A stretch of 43,458 bases of DNA from a virus: the IMG/VR virus record IMGVR_UViG_3300009502_000091, positions 1-43,458 of that record. The stretch is one strand, 5' to 3'. The notes below the pieces were generated by a model. It made no database searches and was not told where the DNA came from. It worked only from the letters and a program-made list of their open reading frames with translations. A program made the translations under genes and the position numbers. Numbering within the stretch: the first letter of the stretch is position 1; each line of letters opens with the position of its first letter. Shown piece by piece: positions 5,170-40,167 of this stretch.

Positions 5170-5219
5170 GTTTTTTATTTATTAATTTTATTATTATTTT
5201 TTGCTTTTAATTGCTTTAC

Positions 5220-5229
5220 GATAAATACT
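5220..5229 (-). promoter_or_regulatory. Late-promoter-like motif before the tail sheath gene
   Basis: AGTATTTATC on the minus strand, 50 nt upstream of the sheath ATG. This is the longest leader among the motif-bearing genes here. Confidence 0.5.
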
Positions 5230-5455: not shown

Positions 5456-5465
5456 AGTATTTATA
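5456..5465 (+). promoter_or_regulatory. Late-promoter-like motif before the plus-strand tail cluster
   Basis: TTAGTATTTATA, 15 nt before the ATG at 5481. The motif reads the same way relative to the gene as on minus-strand genes, which argues that it is directional. Confidence 0.5.
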
Positions 5466-5480
5466 ATAAAGAATTAATAA

Positions 5481-10486: not shown

Positions 10487-10633
10487 ATGAAAAATGCAAT
10501 TAAAATCAAAATGATCAACATTAGAATTGATCAAGAAACGAATGAAAACTTTAAACTTCATTGTATAAAAAATGGATATTCAATATCTAAAAGAATAAGA
10601 ATTCTAATAAAAAACGATATTGATGGAAAATGA
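10487..10633 (+). CDS. Small ribbon-helix-helix DNA-binding protein (RHH-1)
   Basis: A 48-residue protein. The beta strand INIRIDQET is followed by helix NENFKLHCIKNG, turn YSIS, and helix KRIRILIKNDI, which is the ribbon-helix-helix layout. Such proteins bind operators as dimers through the strand. The gene overlaps the start of the downstream endonuclease gene by 11 bases (the stop TGA at 10631-10633 lies after ATG 10623), so the two are co-translated. It closely resembles the RHH protein at 18555 in its RIxxxxxxxFxxxCxxN-Y and RI-LI-ND positions. It likely represses its own divergent promoter region; the target is not known. Confidence 0.75.
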   Translation: MKNAIKIKMINIRIDQETNENFKLHCIKNGYSISKRIRILIKNDIDGK

Positions 10634-12383
10634 TATATTATTTGATAATAACGGAAGTCCTCACTCTGAGAAATATGTAAAAAAATATAATTTAAAATTA
10701 TATAAAATAATAGAAACATTAAATATAAATTATTCTAATCTTCGTTGGGCATGTAAGGTATATAATTATATTCACAATATAACAGAATTTCCCAAATGTC
10801 CGATATGTAATAGTGATCTTAAATTTGTTAATTTTAATAAAGGTTATAGAAAATTTTGTTCTGCAAAATGTTCCGCAAATTCACCAGAAACTAAAGAAAA
10901 TAAAAAAATTACATCACTAAAAAATTACGATACAGAATACCCAACACAAAATATAATAAATAAACAAAAAAAAGAAGAAACTAATCTCAAAAAATATGGA
11001 ACAAAATACCCAATACAAAATAAAGAAGTTAGAGAAAAACAAAAGAGTACCTTATTTAAAAATTATGGAGTAGTTTCGCCATTTAAATCATCAATAATTA
11101 GAGAACGGGCAAAAAAAAGTGTTATGAAAAATTGGGATGTTGAAAACGTATCGCAGTCAAAAATGATTATTGAAAAAAAGAAAAATTCTTCTTTAAAAAA
11201 ATTTGGAACAGAGTGTACTTTTCAGTCTGAAACAGTAAAAAATAAATCAAAAATAACTACCAGAAATATATATGGCGTAGATTATTATGTTCAAACTGAA
11301 GAAAATAAATTAAATATAAAAAATGAAATTAATGAAAAAAGAATTGATTTTTGGACAAATTATTTAAAAATAAATAATGAAGATATTAAAATTAGTGGTT
11401 CTACATTTATTATTAATAATTTATGTGAAATTCATAAATCGTTCAACATTAATAGATACAATTTATATAATAGAACAATTGTCGGACATTTCGAAAATAT
11501 TTGTACAATATGTAATCCAATTTCCGAGAACTCATCAATCAAAGAAAATGAAATTAAAATTTTTATTGAAAACGAACTAAATTTAAACACAAAAAAAATA
11601 AAAATTAATAAAAAGGAAATTAATATTAATGTTCCTACACATAATTCGGGAATTGAATTTGATGGATTGTATTGGCATTCTGATAAAAGAAAAAATAGTA
11701 CTAGATATCATCTAGATAAAACAGAACTATGTAAATCTGTTGGAATAGACCTCTTGCATATTTTTGAAGACGAATGGACGTTTAAAAAAGAAATTGTTAA
11801 ATCAATAATTAAGTCAAAATTAAACATTTTTGATAAGACAATTAATTCGGAGGATTGTGAAATAATTATCCCAAATTCTGATATAGTATCTAGTTTTCTG
11901 GAAGATAACAATATTCAAGGTAATATTGATTCCGAAATATCAATTGGATTAACATATAATAATGAATTAGTATCATTAATGATAATCAGTAAAAAACGTT
12001 CAACAATAAAAAAAGACGGTGAATATGAGATTTTGAGATATTGTAATAAACTGAATACTAATGTTATTAATAGTATTAATAAGTTATTAAATTATTTTAT
12101 TAATGAATATCATCCTAAATCAATATTAGTTTTTGTTGATAGAAGATATTCACAAGGTGAGTTGTATGAAGAATTGGGATTTACAAATATAAAAATAACT
12201 AAACCTAATTATTGGTATTTTAAAGCAGGTACGTTAATACGAGAACACCGATTCAATTATAGGAAAGAAATCTTAATAAAAGAAGGATATGATATAAATA
12301 AAACTGAATTTCAAATTATGGCAGAGAGAGGTTATTTGAAAATTTATGATTGTGGAAGTATTATATTTGAAAAACTTCTTTGA
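10623..12383 (+). CDS. Vsr-like (EDxHD-type) homing endonuclease with YG repeats
   Basis: A 587-codon frame exists if an in-frame TTG is used; ATG at 10623 gives 586 residues and is preferred. A zinc finger lies at Cys59, Cys62, Cys79 and Cys83. Five or six ~25-residue repeats of the type LKKYGTKYPIQN...VREK span about 95-225 and are probably DNA-reading modules. A possible second metal site involves Cys268, Cys294 and Cys297. The Vsr-like core spans about 305-384: Glu308/310, IEFDGLYWHS with His352, His363, and FEDE at 381-384. The position of the catalytic Asp (LELDI in relatives) reads INI, with Asn334, so activity may be reduced. The C-terminal GNAT-like domain carries FVDRRYSQGELYEELGF and IYDCG. 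Translationally coupled to the RHH-1 gene. Confidence 0.85.
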   Translation: MENDILFDNNGSPHSEKYVKKYNLKLYKIIETLNINYSNLRWACKVYNYIHNITEFPKCPICNSDLKFVNFNKGYRKFCSAKCSANSPETKENKKITSLKNYDTEYPTQNIINKQKKEETNLKKYGTKYPIQNKEVREKQKSTLFKNYGVVSPFKSSIIRERAKKSVMKNWDVENVSQSKMIIEKKKNSSLKKFGTECTFQSETVKNKSKITTRNIYGVDYYVQTEENKLNIKNEINEKRIDFWTNYLKINNEDIKISGSTFIINNLCEIHKSFNINRYNLYNRTIVGHFENICTICNPISENSSIKENEIKIFIENELNLNTKKIKINKKEININVPTHNSGIEFDGLYWHSDKRKNSTRYHLDKTELCKSVGIDLLHIFEDEWTFKKEIVKSIIKSKLNIFDKTINSEDCEIIIPNSDIVSSFLEDNNIQGNIDSEISIGLTYNNELVSLMIISKKRSTIKKDGEYEILRYCNKLNTNVINSINKLLNYFINEYHPKSILVFVDRRYSQGELYEELGFTNIKITKPNYWYFKAGTLIREHRFNYRKEILIKEGYDINKTEFQIMAERGYLKIYDCGSIIFEKLL

Positions 12384-14418: not shown

Positions 14419-15249
14419 ATGAATAAAGCTGATCAATATTATATTAATAATTTAAATAAAATAATAAAAGAAGGTTCTTGGGATGAAAATCCTAGACCAA
14501 AATATTCTGATGGAAGTCCAGCATATAGTAAATTTATTACACAAGTATTTGAAGAATATGATATTAGTAAAGGAGAATTTCCTATAACAACATTAAGAAA
14601 CACAGCAATAAAAACAGGAATTAATGAAATTTTATGGATTTATCAAAAACAAAGTAACTCATTAAGTATTGCCAACGAAATGGGAATTAATTGGTGGAAT
14701 GAGTGGAATATTGGTGACGATACTATTGGTCAAAGATATGGAGCAACTATTAAAAGATATAATTTAATTAATAAATTATTATATTCACTTAAAAACGATC
14801 CATTTAGTAGAAGACATATTATAAATTTATATCAAGAAAATGATTTAGCAGAAACTAAAGGATTATACCCATGTGCTTATGAAACAATTTGGTCTGTTAG
14901 AACAGGTAATAATATTAATTACTTAGACTTAACATTAATTCAAAGATCAAATGATTATATCATGTCTGGATATATTAATAAAATACAATATGTTGCACTG
15001 CAAATGATGATTGCTTCACATTTAGGTTATTCTGTTGGTAAGTTTTGTCATTTAGTTCAAAATTTACATGTTTATGATAGACATTTTGAAGCAATTTATG
15101 AAATTTCAAATAGAATACCAGTAAAAATTAAACCTAAATTAATATTAAAAGAAAATAAAAATTTTTACGATTTTACTATTAATGATTTTGAAATTAAAAA
15201 TATTAAAGGAATTGAAAAATTAAATATTAAATTAGAATTGGCAATTTAG
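14419..15249 (+). CDS. thyA: Thymidylate synthase
   Basis: Methylates dUMP to dTMP using methylene-tetrahydrofolate. A 276-residue protein with the family landmarks: RR pair at 131-132 for phosphate binding, the nucleophile Cys152 in LYPCAYE, QRSND at 175-179, the Asn187 region, and HVY at 217-219. The active-site context differs from the common PPCH (here YPCAY), as in some divergent phage enzymes. The N-terminal DGSPAYS replaces the usual DRTGTGT motif. It follows dut and one unknown gene. A GIY-YIG endonuclease begins 63 bases downstream, behind a strong inverted repeat. Confidence 0.93.
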   Translation: MNKADQYYINNLNKIIKEGSWDENPRPKYSDGSPAYSKFITQVFEEYDISKGEFPITTLRNTAIKTGINEILWIYQKQSNSLSIANEMGINWWNEWNIGDDTIGQRYGATIKRYNLINKLLYSLKNDPFSRRHIINLYQENDLAETKGLYPCAYETIWSVRTGNNINYLDLTLIQRSNDYIMSGYINKIQYVALQMMIASHLGYSVGKFCHLVQNLHVYDRHFEAIYEISNRIPVKIKPKLILKENKNFYDFTINDFEIKNIKGIEKLNIKLELAI

Positions 15250-15270
15250 ATTTATTTTAGGACTATCTTA

Positions 15271-15313
15271 TAATATTATTTTTATTTTATTATTTATAAT
15301 AAAAATAATATTA
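15271..15313 (+). promoter_or_regulatory. 16-bp perfect inverted repeat with promoter-like loop before the GIY-YIG gene
   Basis: The left arm 15271-15286 (TAATATTATTTTTATT) and right arm 15298-15313 are exact complements, separated by 11 bases. The right arm ends on the A of the endonuclease ATG. ATTATTTATA at 15289-15298, one base off the late-promoter-like motif, lies in the loop 14 nt before the start. Read-through RNA from thyA could fold and hide the start, whereas RNA started at the loop motif would lack the left arm. It could also act as a weak terminator for thyA. Confidence 0.6.
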
Positions 15314-16047
15314 TGACAGGGATATATAAAATTAGAAATATAAATAATAATGATTGTTATATTGGTTCAGCGAAAAACATTAATAGAAGATGGAATAGGC
15401 ATAGATGCGGTTTAAGAAATAATAAGCATGAAAACATAATTCTTCAACGAGCATGGAATAAATATGGCGAAGAAAATTTTATTTTTGAAATACTAGAAGA
15501 GTGTATGGTAGAAGATTTATTAACGAATGAACAAAAATATTTAGATTTAAATCCAAAATATAATATTGGAAAAACTGCTAGTGGTGGTGATAATTTAACA
15601 AACCACCCAAATAGAGATAACATCATAATAAATATAAAAAATGCCACACAATTAAGAATAAACAATATGTCAGATGAAGATAGAAAAGAAAAATTTTCAA
15701 GACCAATGGAAAAAAATCCAAATTGGAAAGGAGGGAAATCTTATAAATATTGTAAATGTGGTAAACGAATAGCACTAATTAATTCCACTTGTAATCAATG
15801 TAAACCAAGTACCGGAAAAGATAATCCTTTTTATAATAAACACCATACAGATGAAACAAAATTAAAATTATCAGAACAAAGAAAAGGTATATACAATGGT
15901 ACTCAAAACATTCCAATAATTATAAATGATATTGAATATAATTCAGCAGGTGAAGCATCTAAAAAATTAGGAATTCCAATGGTAACTATTAGATGGAGAG
16001 TATTAAGTAAAAATAAAAAATTTGAAAACTATAAATATAAAAAATAA
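15313..16047 (+). CDS. GIY-YIG homing endonuclease with NUMOD-type modules
   Basis: A 244-residue site-specific endonuclease. GIY-YIG nuclease at residues about 2-90: GIYKI, YIGSA, the catalytic Arg in NINRRWNRH, and Glu in LLTNEQKYL. Downstream come a FSRPMEKNPNWKGG NUMOD3-like motif, a Cys4 zinc finger (CKCGKR...CNQC, near 150-168), a second NUMOD3-like stretch (NPFYNKHHTDETKLKLSEQRKG), and a C-terminal NUMOD1-like helix-turn-helix (NSAGEASKKLGIPMVTI). This is the modular plan of T4 I-TevI. Its place just after thyA is notable because the T4 thymidylate synthase gene also hosts a GIY-YIG endonuclease, there inside an intron. No intron is evident here, as thyA is intact. Confidence 0.88.
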   Translation: MTGIYKIRNINNNDCYIGSAKNINRRWNRHRCGLRNNKHENIILQRAWNKYGEENFIFEILEECMVEDLLTNEQKYLDLNPKYNIGKTASGGDNLTNHPNRDNIIINIKNATQLRINNMSDEDRKEKFSRPMEKNPNWKGGKSYKYCKCGKRIALINSTCNQCKPSTGKDNPFYNKHHTDETKLKLSEQRKGIYNGTQNIPIIINDIEYNSAGEASKKLGIPMVTIRWRVLSKNKKFENYKYKK

Positions 16048-23817: not shown

Positions 23818-24746
23818 AACGAAAACCAAACGGATATTGGACGTTTGAAAAATGTAAAGAAGAAGCGTTGAAATATTATACGAAAAAAGAATTTCATCAT
23901 AAATCTGGCAGCGCATATGATTCCGCATGTACACATGGATGGCTTGATGAAATACAATCGCATTTAAAAGGAAATAGAAAACCTAATAATTATTGGACTA
24001 AAGAAAAATGTAAAGAAGAAGCGTTAAAATATGAAACTCGAAATGAATTTCAAAGAAATTCAAGAAGTGCATATACAGCATCTCGAAGAAATTTTTGGAT
24101 TGATGAAATATGTATTCATATGAGAGAAAAGGGAACATTACGTAAGAGATATATTTATTCGTTTGAATTTGATGATAATTATGTATATGTTGGATTAACA
24201 TATAACATTGAAATAAGAAAAAATCTTCACATGGGTTTAAATAAAGCATTAACACAAAGCGAAAAATCTCAAGTTTATTGTCATATGAAAAAAACAGGAT
24301 TAATACCAAATTTATTTATATTAACAAAAGAACCTATTGATGAAAATTCTGCTGCTGAAATTGAACGATTATATATTAAATATTATAAAGATAATAAATG
24401 GATTCTTTTGAATAAAATAGTCGGTGGTGGTTTGGGATATGGTGCAAAAAAATGGACAAAGGAAAAGATTAAAGAAGAAGCATTAAAATATAAAAGCAGA
24501 TACGAATTTAAGAAAAAATCAGTTGGAGCATATAATGCCGCAGTTAAACTTAGAATTATGAATGATGTGTGTTTACATATGAATACTAAACCTATAACAC
24601 ATTGGACAAAGGAATTGGCACACGAAGAAGCATTAAAATATGATAATACAACCGATTTTTTAAAATATTCATTAAAAGCATATAGTGCAGCACGAAAATA
24701 TGGATGGCTTAATGAAATTAGAACACATATGAAAATAATAAAATAA
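23814..24746 (+). CDS. GIY-YIG endonuclease with the nuclease between W-EALKY-H repeats
   Basis: 310 residues. Two ~50-residue repeats (YWTFEKCKEEALKY...WLDEIQSHL and YWTKEKCKEEALKY...WIDEICIHM) precede the nuclease at about residues 107-205 (RKRYIYSFEF...YVYVGLTYNIEIRKNLH, catalytic Glu in AAEIERLYI, ending GGGLGYG). Two more repeats follow. The repeats and nuclease match those at 21781, but there the nuclease is N-terminal with five repeats behind it. It starts with an ATGA overlap and its stop abuts the helicase ATG, so it sits seamlessly inside an accessory operon, with no RHH partner. Probably a free-standing homing endonuclease. Confidence 0.82.
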   Translation: MKRKPNGYWTFEKCKEEALKYYTKKEFHHKSGSAYDSACTHGWLDEIQSHLKGNRKPNNYWTKEKCKEEALKYETRNEFQRNSRSAYTASRRNFWIDEICIHMREKGTLRKRYIYSFEFDDNYVYVGLTYNIEIRKNLHMGLNKALTQSEKSQVYCHMKKTGLIPNLFILTKEPIDENSAAEIERLYIKYYKDNKWILLNKIVGGGLGYGAKKWTKEKIKEEALKYKSRYEFKKKSVGAYNAAVKLRIMNDVCLHMNTKPITHWTKELAHEEALKYDNTTDFLKYSLKAYSAARKYGWLNEIRTHMKIIK

Positions 24747-26228
24747 ATGAATCATAAACCAACGTCTGAACAGGAACGTATCTTTATGTTTATAAAGAAA
24801 AGACCTGAAAATGTATTAATTAAAGCCTATGCAGGAACTGGTAAAACATATACTATTGTAGAAGCAGTTAAATTATTACCTAAAGATAAATCAATCATGT
24901 TTCTTGCATTTAATAAACATATCCAAGAGGAACTTAAAACAAAACTTCCAGAATATGTCCGTTGCTACACCACATATGGTTTAGGTACAGCAGCAATTAA
25001 AAGAAAATATGGTGATAGTATTCAATTTGATGAATTTAAAATAGATAAAATCATTCAGAAGAAAGCAAAGGGTTGGAATTTGAATGAAGAATTTGATGGT
25101 GACGAAGAAATATCGATTTATTTAAACCTAGTTAAAAAGTTAGTTAACTTATGTAGGTTAACATTAACTTTAAAGCCAGAATATGTGTCATATATCACAG
25201 ATCGATATGATATCAATATAACTAAGCCAAAAGATATTAAAAGGGTATTTAAGGTCTTAGATGAAGCCACAAACGATAGAAAATCTTTTGATTATACAGA
25301 CATGATTTATCTACCTGCTGTTGATAATTCTATTTGGATGTTTCCACAAGATTATGTTTTTATAGATGAAACACAAGACTTAAATAAATGTCAAATTAGA
25401 ATTGTTGAAAAAATACTTAAAAAGGATAAATTATCAGGTAAATTAACAGGTAGATTAATTTCAGTTGGAGACAAATTTCAAGGTGTTTACGGCTTCAACG
25501 GTTCTGATGAAAAATCATTTGAATGGTTTGAAAAATTTCCAAATACCAAAATATTACCATTAACCGTTTCTTTCAGATGTGCAAAAAATATTATATTAAA
25601 AGCACAAGAAATTGTACTTGATATTAAAGCATTAGACAATGCTCCAGATGGTGTTGTTAGAGAAGGTGATGTTTTAACCGAAGCACAAAGTGGTGATTTT
25701 GTTCTTTGTAGAACAACAATGCCATTAGTTAAATTGTTTTTTGAATTTTTAACACAACATAAAAAAGCAATTATCAAAGGTTCTGATATTGGTGTACATC
25801 TAATTGAATTAATTGGTAAAATTAATAATATTGATAAATTAAGAACGTTTTGGGAACACGAATTAGAATCTTTCAGAAAAGATTTAAAATCAAGCGGTGT
25901 TTTAAACCCAATCGAACATAGTGGATATTCTGCATTGGAAGATAAAGTAACAACATTATTATTTCTTGCCCGTTTATCCAATAGTATTTCTGATTTAAAA
26001 TTAAAAATTAAAACAATATTTACTGATGATATTGAAGGTATTTGTTTAAGTACGATACATAAAATTAAAGGGTTAGAGAGCGATAGAGTATTTATTGTAA
26101 GACCTGATCTAATGCCATTACCTAATACGAGAAGTTGGCAATTTGTACAGGAAAAGAACTTGGAATATGTTGCTATTACTCGTGCCCGTTTAGAATTAAT
26201 ATATGATAAAAATTGGAGTGATGAATGA
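24747..26228 (+). CDS. Superfamily 1 (UvrD/Rep/Dda-like) DNA helicase
   Basis: 493-residue ATP-driven 3'-5'- or 5'-3'-type helicase; direction cannot be read from the sequence. Motifs in order: Q-like TSEQERIF; Walker A AYAGTGKT (27-34); motif Ia LAFNKH; YTTYGLG; Walker B VFIDETQD; motif III GDKFQGVYGFNGS; motif IV VSFRC; motif V CLSTIHKIKGLESDRVF; motif VI EYVAITRARLELI. It lacks a large 2B insertion, so it is compact like T4 Dda or UvsW-class accessory helicases. Likely works in phage replication or recombination. It sits in the second plus-strand accessory block. Confidence 0.92.
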   Translation: MNHKPTSEQERIFMFIKKRPENVLIKAYAGTGKTYTIVEAVKLLPKDKSIMFLAFNKHIQEELKTKLPEYVRCYTTYGLGTAAIKRKYGDSIQFDEFKIDKIIQKKAKGWNLNEEFDGDEEISIYLNLVKKLVNLCRLTLTLKPEYVSYITDRYDINITKPKDIKRVFKVLDEATNDRKSFDYTDMIYLPAVDNSIWMFPQDYVFIDETQDLNKCQIRIVEKILKKDKLSGKLTGRLISVGDKFQGVYGFNGSDEKSFEWFEKFPNTKILPLTVSFRCAKNIILKAQEIVLDIKALDNAPDGVVREGDVLTEAQSGDFVLCRTTMPLVKLFFEFLTQHKKAIIKGSDIGVHLIELIGKINNIDKLRTFWEHELESFRKDLKSSGVLNPIEHSGYSALEDKVTTLLFLARLSNSISDLKLKIKTIFTDDIEGICLSTIHKIKGLESDRVFIVRPDLMPLPNTRSWQFVQEKNLEYVAITRARLELIYDKNWSDE

Positions 26229-27431: not shown

Positions 27432-28460
27432 TCATTTAAAAATAAAAAAATCATAATACCAAGGCATTCCCGTTTTCATTTCAATTTGTTTTCTTTTAAA
27501 TTTTGATTCAATTTTAAAATCAGGATATGTACTAATAATATGTGTGGTTAATGCACCAGATTTATTGATAACATCGGAAAATTGTTTTTCTGTTTTTTTG
27601 CATACGGCAAAATTAAAATTTTTTATATTAAAATCGTCAGTTTTTGGTTCTTCTTTTTGTTTAATATACTTATTTAATGTTGAAAAATAAATAAAATATT
27701 TTTTAGATAAACTTCTTATTGAAACATTATTATTTAAATATTCATTGTATATATTTAAAAGTTCTTCTTCTGTAAATTCGGTTAATTCTTTATAGTTTAT
27801 TTGTTTATATTTATTAATATTACTAGATAAAAAATCGTCCTCATAACACCAATAAGAATAATCTTTATTTTTTGAATATCCTAAACATTTTCTTAATAAT
27901 TGTTGATATGATAAACCATCACTATTAGTTCTACCAGCATCTGCTAATGATTTATATGTTTCTAAAATAATATTCTTTTCTTTATCTATTTTTAAAACAA
28001 CTTTAGAAATTTTAAGATTTCTTTTATTTACCCAACCATCGTTTTGTTTTCTTCCTTTTCTTTGATCTGATAATTTCTTTTTAGTTTCTGGACTTGCAAG
28101 AGAATTTTTACCGCCAGATTCAATATTATATCCGAAATTTCTATTATTTGATTTATATAAATTTATATAAACAATTTCTTTATTATTCAGTTCAATTATA
28201 TTGTTGGCTGAATCGATGATGCTAAATTCAAAATTTTCTAAACCATACCTATTTATTGCATTATAAAGAACACAGTTTTTCTTGTTTATTACATTTTGGA
28301 TATGTTCTGATATTCGATCTCTAACTCTAATACTTTGTCCTATATATCGTTTACCATTTATTTTGTTAATAAATAAATAAATATGTCCAAACTCTTTTAA
28401 TGTTATATCATTTAATATATTGATTTCAATATCATGATTTCTTAATTTTAATGTGTTCAT
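27432..28460 (-). CDS. GIY-YIG homing endonuclease
   Basis: 342 residues with a ~23-residue extension before the nuclease. Nuclease about 24-115: HIYLFINKINGKRYIGQS (variant GIY-YIG), Arg in VRDRISEHI, Glu in NNKEIVYINLY, ending YNIESGGKNS. A NUMOD3-like motif follows (SPETKKKLSDQRKGRKQ), then a NUMOD1-like segment (KIDKEKNIILETYKSLADAG ... LRKCLGYSKNKDYSYW) and a C-terminal helix-turn-helix-like stretch (NNVSIRSLSKKYFIYFSTLNKYI). The last ~80 residues are of unknown type. Start overlaps the stop of the upstream GIY-YIG gene by 4 bases. Confidence 0.85.
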   Translation of the reverse strand: MNTLKLRNHDIEINILNDITLKEFGHIYLFINKINGKRYIGQSIRVRDRISEHIQNVINKKNCVLYNAINRYGLENFEFSIIDSANNIIELNNKEIVYINLYKSNNRNFGYNIESGGKNSLASPETKKKLSDQRKGRKQNDGWVNKRNLKISKVVLKIDKEKNIILETYKSLADAGRTNSDGLSYQQLLRKCLGYSKNKDYSYWCYEDDFLSSNINKYKQINYKELTEFTEEELLNIYNEYLNNNVSIRSLSKKYFIYFSTLNKYIKQKEEPKTDDFNIKNFNFAVCKKTEKQFSDVINKSGALTTHIISTYPDFKIESKFKRKQIEMKTGMPWYYDFFIFK

Positions 28461-29200
28461 TGCTTATTATATGTCCAAAGAATTCCGTTAATTATTTTAT
28501 CATTACAACACCACCTACTTATTGTAGATTGATGTACATTCTGAAACTTACTGGCTTCAACTGTTGATTCAAAAATGTTAATTATTTCTTTTGTAATTGA
28601 ATTTAAACTATATACCTTTTTATTTAAGATTTCTTTTTGTAATTGAGAAAAACCTTGATCAGATTTAGTCTGGCTTATTTTTTTTCGTGTTTTTTCATCA
28701 CGTGTTTTACCTTGCCAATATTTTGGAGAAATTTTACTTAAATATTTTTTTTCTTCTTCAGTTTTTTCTTTACCATATTTTTTGGCTTCGATACTTCCAG
28801 CACTAGCAATTCTATTATTAATCCATTCTTTGCTTTGTTTTATGCCTTTATGTGCTTCTGACATTTTAGTTAATGTTTCTGTACATGGAATTGAATTTTT
28901 ACCACCCGATTCTATATTATATCCGTATTTTCTATCATTTGATTTATATATGTCAATATAGTAAATTTCTTTTTCATTTAATTCTTCAATAGTTTTTGCT
29001 TTGTCAATTATAATAAATTCAAAATTTTCCCATCCATATTTATTAAATGCTTTTAATAAATATGGATTGTTTAATTTATTAGATTTCATATCACGCTTAT
29101 ATTCATTAATTCTTTCATTTAATGATCTTATGGTTTGCCCAATATAAATTTTATTATTTATTTTATTTAACAATTTATAAATTATTCCAAATTCTTTCAT
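28457..29200 (-). CDS. GIY-YIG homing endonuclease, tandem with its paralogue
   Basis: 247 residues. Nuclease about 4-95: GIIYKLLNKINNKIYIGQT, Arg in LNERINEY, Glu in LNEKEIYYIDIY, then YNIESGGKNS, a block nearly identical to the one in the downstream paralogue. NUMOD3-like motifs (TETLTKMSEAHKGIKQ; KISPKYWQGKTRDEKTRKKI) and a C-terminal NUMOD1 (NSITKEIINIFESTVEASKF ... STISRWCCNDKIINGILWTY). It starts 37 bases beyond the capsid gene terminator, so expression would need read-through or a promoter that I cannot identify. Confidence 0.87.
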   Translation of the reverse strand: MKEFGIIYKLLNKINNKIYIGQTIRSLNERINEYKRDMKSNKLNNPYLLKAFNKYGWENFEFIIIDKAKTIEELNEKEIYYIDIYKSNDRKYGYNIESGGKNSIPCTETLTKMSEAHKGIKQSKEWINNRIASAGSIEAKKYGKEKTEEEKKYLSKISPKYWQGKTRDEKTRKKISQTKSDQGFSQLQKEILNKKVYSLNSITKEIINIFESTVEASKFQNVHQSTISRWCCNDKIINGILWTYNKQ

Positions 29201-33371: not shown

Positions 33372-33387
33372 ATATAATAATCTTTAA

Positions 33388-33397
33388 TATAAATACT
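33388..33397 (-). promoter_or_regulatory. Late-promoter-like motif before the prohead protease gene
   Basis: AGTATTTATA on the minus strand, 16 nt before the ATG at 33371, just beyond the stop codon of the 50-residue gene upstream. Confidence 0.5.
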
Positions 33398-34005: not shown

Positions 34006-34015
34006 AGTATTTATC
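34006..34015 (+). promoter_or_regulatory. Late-promoter-like motif before the baseplate hub gene
   Basis: AGTATTTATC on the plus strand, 16 nt before the ATG at 34032, at a divergent junction with the membrane-protein gene. Confidence 0.5.
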
Positions 34016-34031
34016 ATAAAATACAATAAAA

Positions 34032-40141: not shown

Positions 40142-40157
40142 ATTAACTAAAATTTAA

Positions 40158-40167
40158 TATAAATACT
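40158..40167 (-). promoter_or_regulatory. Late-promoter-like motif downstream of the portal gene
   Basis: AGTATTTATA on the minus strand, 16 nt before the ATG at 40141, in the 70-base gap between portal and core-like genes. Confidence 0.5.

Follow-up and report, generated by a model that had tools for sequence, protein, structure and literature searches.

The window (the whole stretch of DNA analyzed here, 43,458 bases) comes from a T4-related myovirus with PHROGs matches for tail sheath, portal, head protease, and major head protein. On its plus strand, an uninterrupted thymidylate synthase gene, thyA (positions 14419 to 15249; Pfam PF00303, E 1.7e-60, positions 2 to 262 of 266), is followed by a gene for a GIY-YIG endonuclease of 244 amino acids (15313 to 16047; PF01541, 1.5e-11; PF22635, 1.7e-9; PF07460, 3.8e-6). 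The window ThyA is a single 276-amino-acid frame of the SGYINKIQ type and lacks the LGLPFN homing site. No group I intron or intron remnant was matched by Rfam in the window, which, together with the single ThyA frame, agrees with an earlier note on this DNA that no intron is present. The endonuclease is free-standing rather than encoded in a thyA group I intron and is a relative of I-TevI, not I-TevI itself. A hairpin, a late-type promoter, and a homing-site-like operator lie at its start.

These 43 kb also contain no fewer than seven other genes for putative homing endonucleases of the HNH, DUF7487, and GIY-YIG kinds (707 to 2263, 10620 to 12383, 18700 to 20376, 21781 to 22899, 23814 to 24746, 27432 to 28460, and 28457 to 29200). 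The last, a GIY-YIG gene on the minus strand, contains within its coding part (at 29022 to 29077) a perfect 16-bp inverted repeat (29032 to 29047 and 29052 to 29067) around the conserved NKYG codons. At 23814 to 26228, a helicase open reading frame (24747 to 26228) that begins at position 149 of the 776 in its PHROG profile comes right after a GIY-YIG-domain frame, and the helicase gene has possibly been split by the endonuclease gene.

Start-codon hairpin and late-type promoter

The inverted repeat between thyA and the GIY-YIG gene is 17 bp long and perfect, with arms 11 nt apart. The left arm (ATAATATTATTTTTATT, 15270 to 15286, plus strand) overlaps the 3' part of the operator and would be part of read-through RNA only; the right arm (AATAAAAATAATATTAT, 15298 to 15314, plus strand) takes in A15313 and T15314 of the start codon. 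The stem is made of A-U pairs only (−11.8 kcal/mol), and the arms of the window are without homologues. No Shine-Dalgarno sequence was found upstream of 15313, and the ATG itself is paired. The earlier note had described a perfect 16-bp repeat ending on the A of the ATG; the repeat is present and perfect, but it is one base pair longer and covers both the A and the T.

The loop holds the late-type promoter, ATTATTTATAATAAA (15289 to 15303, plus strand), with TATTTATA at 15291 to 15298, 14 nt before the ATG; the right arm begins with its last A (15298). The first T of TATTTAT lies 22 nt from the ATG, as is usual in this phage: GTATTTAT has 16 copies in the window, most of which precede genes in the sense direction, with the ATG at a modal distance of 22 to 24 nt. 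The motif GTATTTATNNTAAA occurs six times, against 0.09 expected (5215 to 5228, 5457 to 5470, 33383 to 33396, 34007 to 34020, 40153 to 40166, and 43376 to 43389), and is found in sense upstream of the tail sheath, portal, and head protease genes; we infer its late character from the genes that it serves. In the hairpin copy, a T replaces the first G. Because this copy is only one base off and 22 nt from the ATG, it can be taken as the phage's own late-type promoter, as had been proposed from a loop motif one base from the late type and 14 nt before the ATG. By itself, TATTTATA was rejected as a promoter signal, being only mildly enriched (30 versus 20); the longer motif with TAAA is informative. 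TATTTATA, the core of GTATTTATNNTAAA, is T4's TATAAATA in reverse complement, and GTATTTATNNTAAA also occurs often in the contigs of L019, L236, L006, and L036.

By analogy with T4 late geometry, in which RNA is taken to start 13 nt past the initial T of the motif, the predicted late transcription start is 15304 (plus strand), leaving a leader of 9 nt. The mean unpaired probability of the region from −12 to +3 was 0.01 in read-through RNA versus 0.58 in the late RNA so modeled. A start-hiding hairpin with a late-type promoter in its loop, beside thyA, is borne out by the sequence and by this folding computation.

The homing-site-like operator and the probable thyA target

The operator core, TTTAGGACTATCTTATAATA (15256 to 15275, plus strand), matches the thyA codons for LGLPFN, the equivalent of the td insertion point falling between 15262 and 15263. 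Scored with a matrix from 50 GLPFN thyA sites, it is the best-scoring upstream place in the window (shuffle p 0.005), and it has three mismatches to the nearest GLPFN thyA versus nine to the window's own thyA. In all 42 thyA-linked members tested, the best upstream place was a homing-site-like operator (shuffle p 0.025 to 0.065 in six diverged members and 0.005 or less in the rest). The family-wide match is limited to about −7 to +12, grows weaker up to +24, and elsewhere does not rise above background; these ∼20 bp equal the size of the primary binding region given for I-TevI in PMC2988022. As the match fades outside −7 to +12, the operator is more likely a short site than a piece of a gene, and an origin as a thyA exon remnant was rejected, similarity being at background upstream of −7 and weaker after +12.

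The CNNNG cleavage motif is missing from the window operator, which reads AATTG at −27 to −23. At cutting distance, CNNNG occurs in no operator where this was testable, versus 146 of 158 thyA genes, and a C at −27 occurs in none of 26 operators of the clade. The sequence TTAGGACTACCATTTAAC translates as L-G-L-P-F-N, the I-TevI homing site in thyA, and T4 I-TevI has TAGGACTGCCCTTTAAT in the same upstream place, also without the cleavage motif; this T4 site is described in PMC2988022 as a known autorepressor operator. The window operator stands 15 nt upstream of TATTTATA, with no overlap, at about −48 to −29 of the predicted late start. In the Acinetobacter phages and several other relatives, the site is present in inverted orientation. 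On the T4 analogy, the operator is probably a decoy that would let the endonuclease switch itself off. The operators of L101, L106, and L293 read LGLEFN or LGLDFN, not LGLPFN, and a changed target specificity is possible in these.

GLPFN is kept in none of the 22 thyA genes of carriers versus 59 of 70 distinct classic noncarrier genes (Fisher test, 2e-13, uncorrected for kinship). When the association was paired on the thyA tree, it gave seven pairs and a sign test median p of 0.25, with none in the wrong direction. The replacements in carriers are varied (GIPMN, GTPFN, GLSFN, GVSFN, GCPFN, GAPFN, and others), and some carriers, the window included, have a thyA of another type without such a site. 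Judged from the sequences, the endonuclease probably cuts the LGLPFN-bearing thyA genes of coinfecting phages.

Recurrence in relatives and readings of the hairpin

Dozens of relatives of the endonuclease were found, the closest group being 50 to 66% identical and mostly located beside thyA. Upstream of their starts, TTAGGACTACCNTTTAAY, TATTTAT, and the ATG follow one another at nearly fixed spacing, and in 26 relatives the start region is more occluded in read-through than in late RNA, with a late leader of 7 to 10 nt. The hairpin geometry recurs despite different arm sequences; the elements, their spacing, and their recurrence can all be read directly from the genomes. In class A (L007, L015, L016, L024, L026, L089, L090, L100, L102, L103, and L107), the two arms are reverse complements of each other, and the right one stops at the ATG. 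In class B (the window, L032, L092, L101, L106, L281, L293, and others), the stem is made of other sequence. Whether arms diverge in relatives without compensatory changes, a check set by the earlier note, received a divided answer: the class A stem covaries (score of 0.114 versus 0.063 shuffled, reached in 1 of 500 shuffles), with a compensatory example in L100 (GGGGTACC/GGTACCCC), but covariation in the second class, that with AACTTTT arms, was not significant (193 of 500 shuffles). The hairpin is not universally kept, since four of the seven members of the window's subclade (L005, L006, L017, and L019) have weak stems that fold scarcely better than shuffles (z of −0.7 to +1.0). Because class B stems differ and some are weak, the position of the stem appears to be kept more than its sequence.

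The inverted repeat could be a DNA operator only, adding a second protein-binding site in inverted orientation beside the start, and RNA structure would then play no part. Such a reading would suit class A, in which both arms are homing-site-like and in opposite orientation, and the Acinetobacter phages, which have just an inverted operator before the ATG and in which no long hairpin was seen. However, the right arm in the window, L032, and L281 is not operator-like and yet pairs with the left arm, the arms of class A covary, and an unrelated HNH gene after thyA (L249) has complementary arms of other sequence around TATTTATA. We consider a role confined to DNA unlikely.

Less likely again is a chance hairpin in A+T-rich DNA, with only the promoter and the operator being of importance. 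A stem of A-U pairs alone and its weakness or absence in four of the seven subclade members are what chance might produce, but perfect repeats of at least 14 bp (loop of 3 to 20) number three in the real window versus none in 20 dinucleotide-shuffled windows. In 1,000 shuffles of the 80 nt upstream, the hairpin energy was matched in 1.3%, and the start was never as strongly occluded as the real one. The comparison was extended to 166 late-promoter genes, defined by TATTTAT 15 to 35 nt before the start, in ∼800 kb from five phage contigs, and the computed occlusion in read-through RNA was highest at the endonuclease start (rank 1 of 166). Endonuclease domains (GIY-YIG, HNH, endonuclease VII, and DUF7487) are overrepresented at the most occluded starts (7 of 11 versus ∼17 of 155 others; p of ∼1e-4), the latter count being a rough tally, with possible overlap of domains and with 30 long proteins outside the Pfam scan.

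A transcription terminator of thyA, which the position just past the thyA stop might suggest, is highly improbable and was rejected, as the stem is without G-C pairs, no T tract follows it on either strand, and a scan found no terminator.

Strongly hidden starts are also found at other late-promoter genes, namely an HNH gene (L398, 2800 to 2865, with a 14-bp stem around GTATTT), a GIY-YIG gene (L420, 10920 to 10983), and an endonuclease VII gene (L393, 19070 to 19134). T4 gene 49, the comparison for endonuclease VII, is hairpin controlled as well, according to PMC3014915. A hidden start likewise precedes a large protein in L403 (7719 to 10658) with a LAGLIDADG domain inside a terminase-like protein, likely an intein. 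In other related phages, thyA is followed by HNH enzymes (L249, 2320 to 2420; L282, 2332 to 2440) or by a different GIY-YIG family (L239, 2329 to 2430; L259, 2332 to 2430; L277), and on inspection TATTTATA was seen there close to short hairpins or within them, beside the ATG in L249, L282, L239, and L259. Reuse of the same control logic may hold across enzyme families.

Kinship with I-TevI and proposed control

The endonuclease carries a zinc finger of the I-TevI type and NUMOD3, and its catalytic residues are kept (G3, I4, Y5, Y16, G18, R26, H39, E73, and N84, invariant in A1). It matches the sequences of I-TevI domains whose structures are known, both DNA-binding and catalytic (PDB 1i3j/1t2t, 1.4e-14, residues 127 to 232; 1mk0, 9e-13), and its AlphaFold model has a pLDDT of 77 and a pTM of 0.40. 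In the enzyme tree, thyA-linked enzymes stand apart from other GIY-YIG enzymes, with the exception of L066, and among them the intron-encoded enzymes are interspersed with the free-standing ones (at least five changes). The earlier note had interpreted the locus as an I-TevI-like switch that was independently reused. The geometry is supported, but its independence does not agree with the I-TevI-type domains, the interleaved tree, or a homing-site-like operator that is the same as in T4. Given the domain matches and the tree, a common ancestry of enzyme and operator is more probable than their wholly independent invention. On sequence comparison, the operator looks inherited, and what seems specific to the lineage is limited to the promoter motif and the stem sequence. 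The hairpin, promoter, operator, and kinship therefore describe an endonuclease of the I-TevI family that is free-standing and whose I-TevI-like control is related to, and not wholly independent of, that of I-TevI.

We think it likely that the hairpin, the late promoter in its loop, and the target-site operator together time and limit this free-standing I-TevI relative after thyA. We infer the transcription start, translational silence, protein binding, and repression from T4, and the control would proceed as follows. First, in read-through RNA from thyA and earlier genes, the 17-bp hairpin would bury the start codon, and no enzyme would be made. Second, late in infection, the loop promoter would start RNA inside the right arm, so that the left arm would be absent and the message, with a leader of ∼9 nt, would be translated. 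Third, the enzyme would bind the target-site core at 15256 to 15275, directly upstream of the promoter, without cutting and would lower its own transcription, as does T4 I-TevI. More tentatively, the two inverted copies of the target core on either side of the late promoter in class A (e.g., L016) could serve both as twin DNA operators and as arms that pair over the start codon in read-through messages, and in window-like members the right copy could have been replaced by a new complement, with the switch kept and the second operator lost; we regard this history as possible rather than probable.

I-TevI of the T4 td intron is a homologous enzyme with a zinc finger and a DNA-binding domain, and it shares with the window gene the upstream homing-site-like operator without a cleavage motif, the hairpin at the start, and the placing of a late promoter, which in the window is a predicted one, within the control region (PMC2988022). 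Unlike that of T4, the window gene has no intron and lies after thyA rather than inside it, its late motif is TATTTATA rather than TATAAATA, and its promoter is downstream of the operator rather than overlapping it. The T4 hairpin hides a Shine-Dalgarno sequence, whereas here there is none and the ATG is hidden, and the stem sequences are unrelated. MobE of Aeromonas phage Aeh1 and SegB of T4 are also free-standing, and their genes have a late promoter and a hairpin that covers the initiation region (PMC2988022 and PMC3014915); in contrast to the thyA-linked I-TevI relative, MobE is of the HNH type and lies embedded within a ribonucleotide reductase gene, and the site of action of SegB is the tRNA region. 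In the portions of these papers that deal with them, a homing-site operator is described for neither. Free-standing I-TevI relatives also occur beside thyA in T5-like Salmonella and Escherichia phages and in Acinetobacter T4-like phages, the latter with the inverted operator next to the ATG, but no hairpin surrounds a late promoter at the starts inspected. A literature search on this architecture in free-standing thyA-linked enzymes returned T4 reviews only.

The three-layer control of I-TevI, consisting of hairpin, late promoter, and autorepressor operator, thus appears not to be tied to the td intron. Distant T4-related phages appear to have it in free-standing relatives as well, with promoter and stem rewritten in each lineage. 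The thyA genes next to the endonuclease have lost the target that the operator still displays, so that homing and self-protection can be tested directly. How intron and endonuclease came to be united (collaborative homing, PMC2988022) is a question on which free-standing enzymes already aimed at the td intron site also bear.
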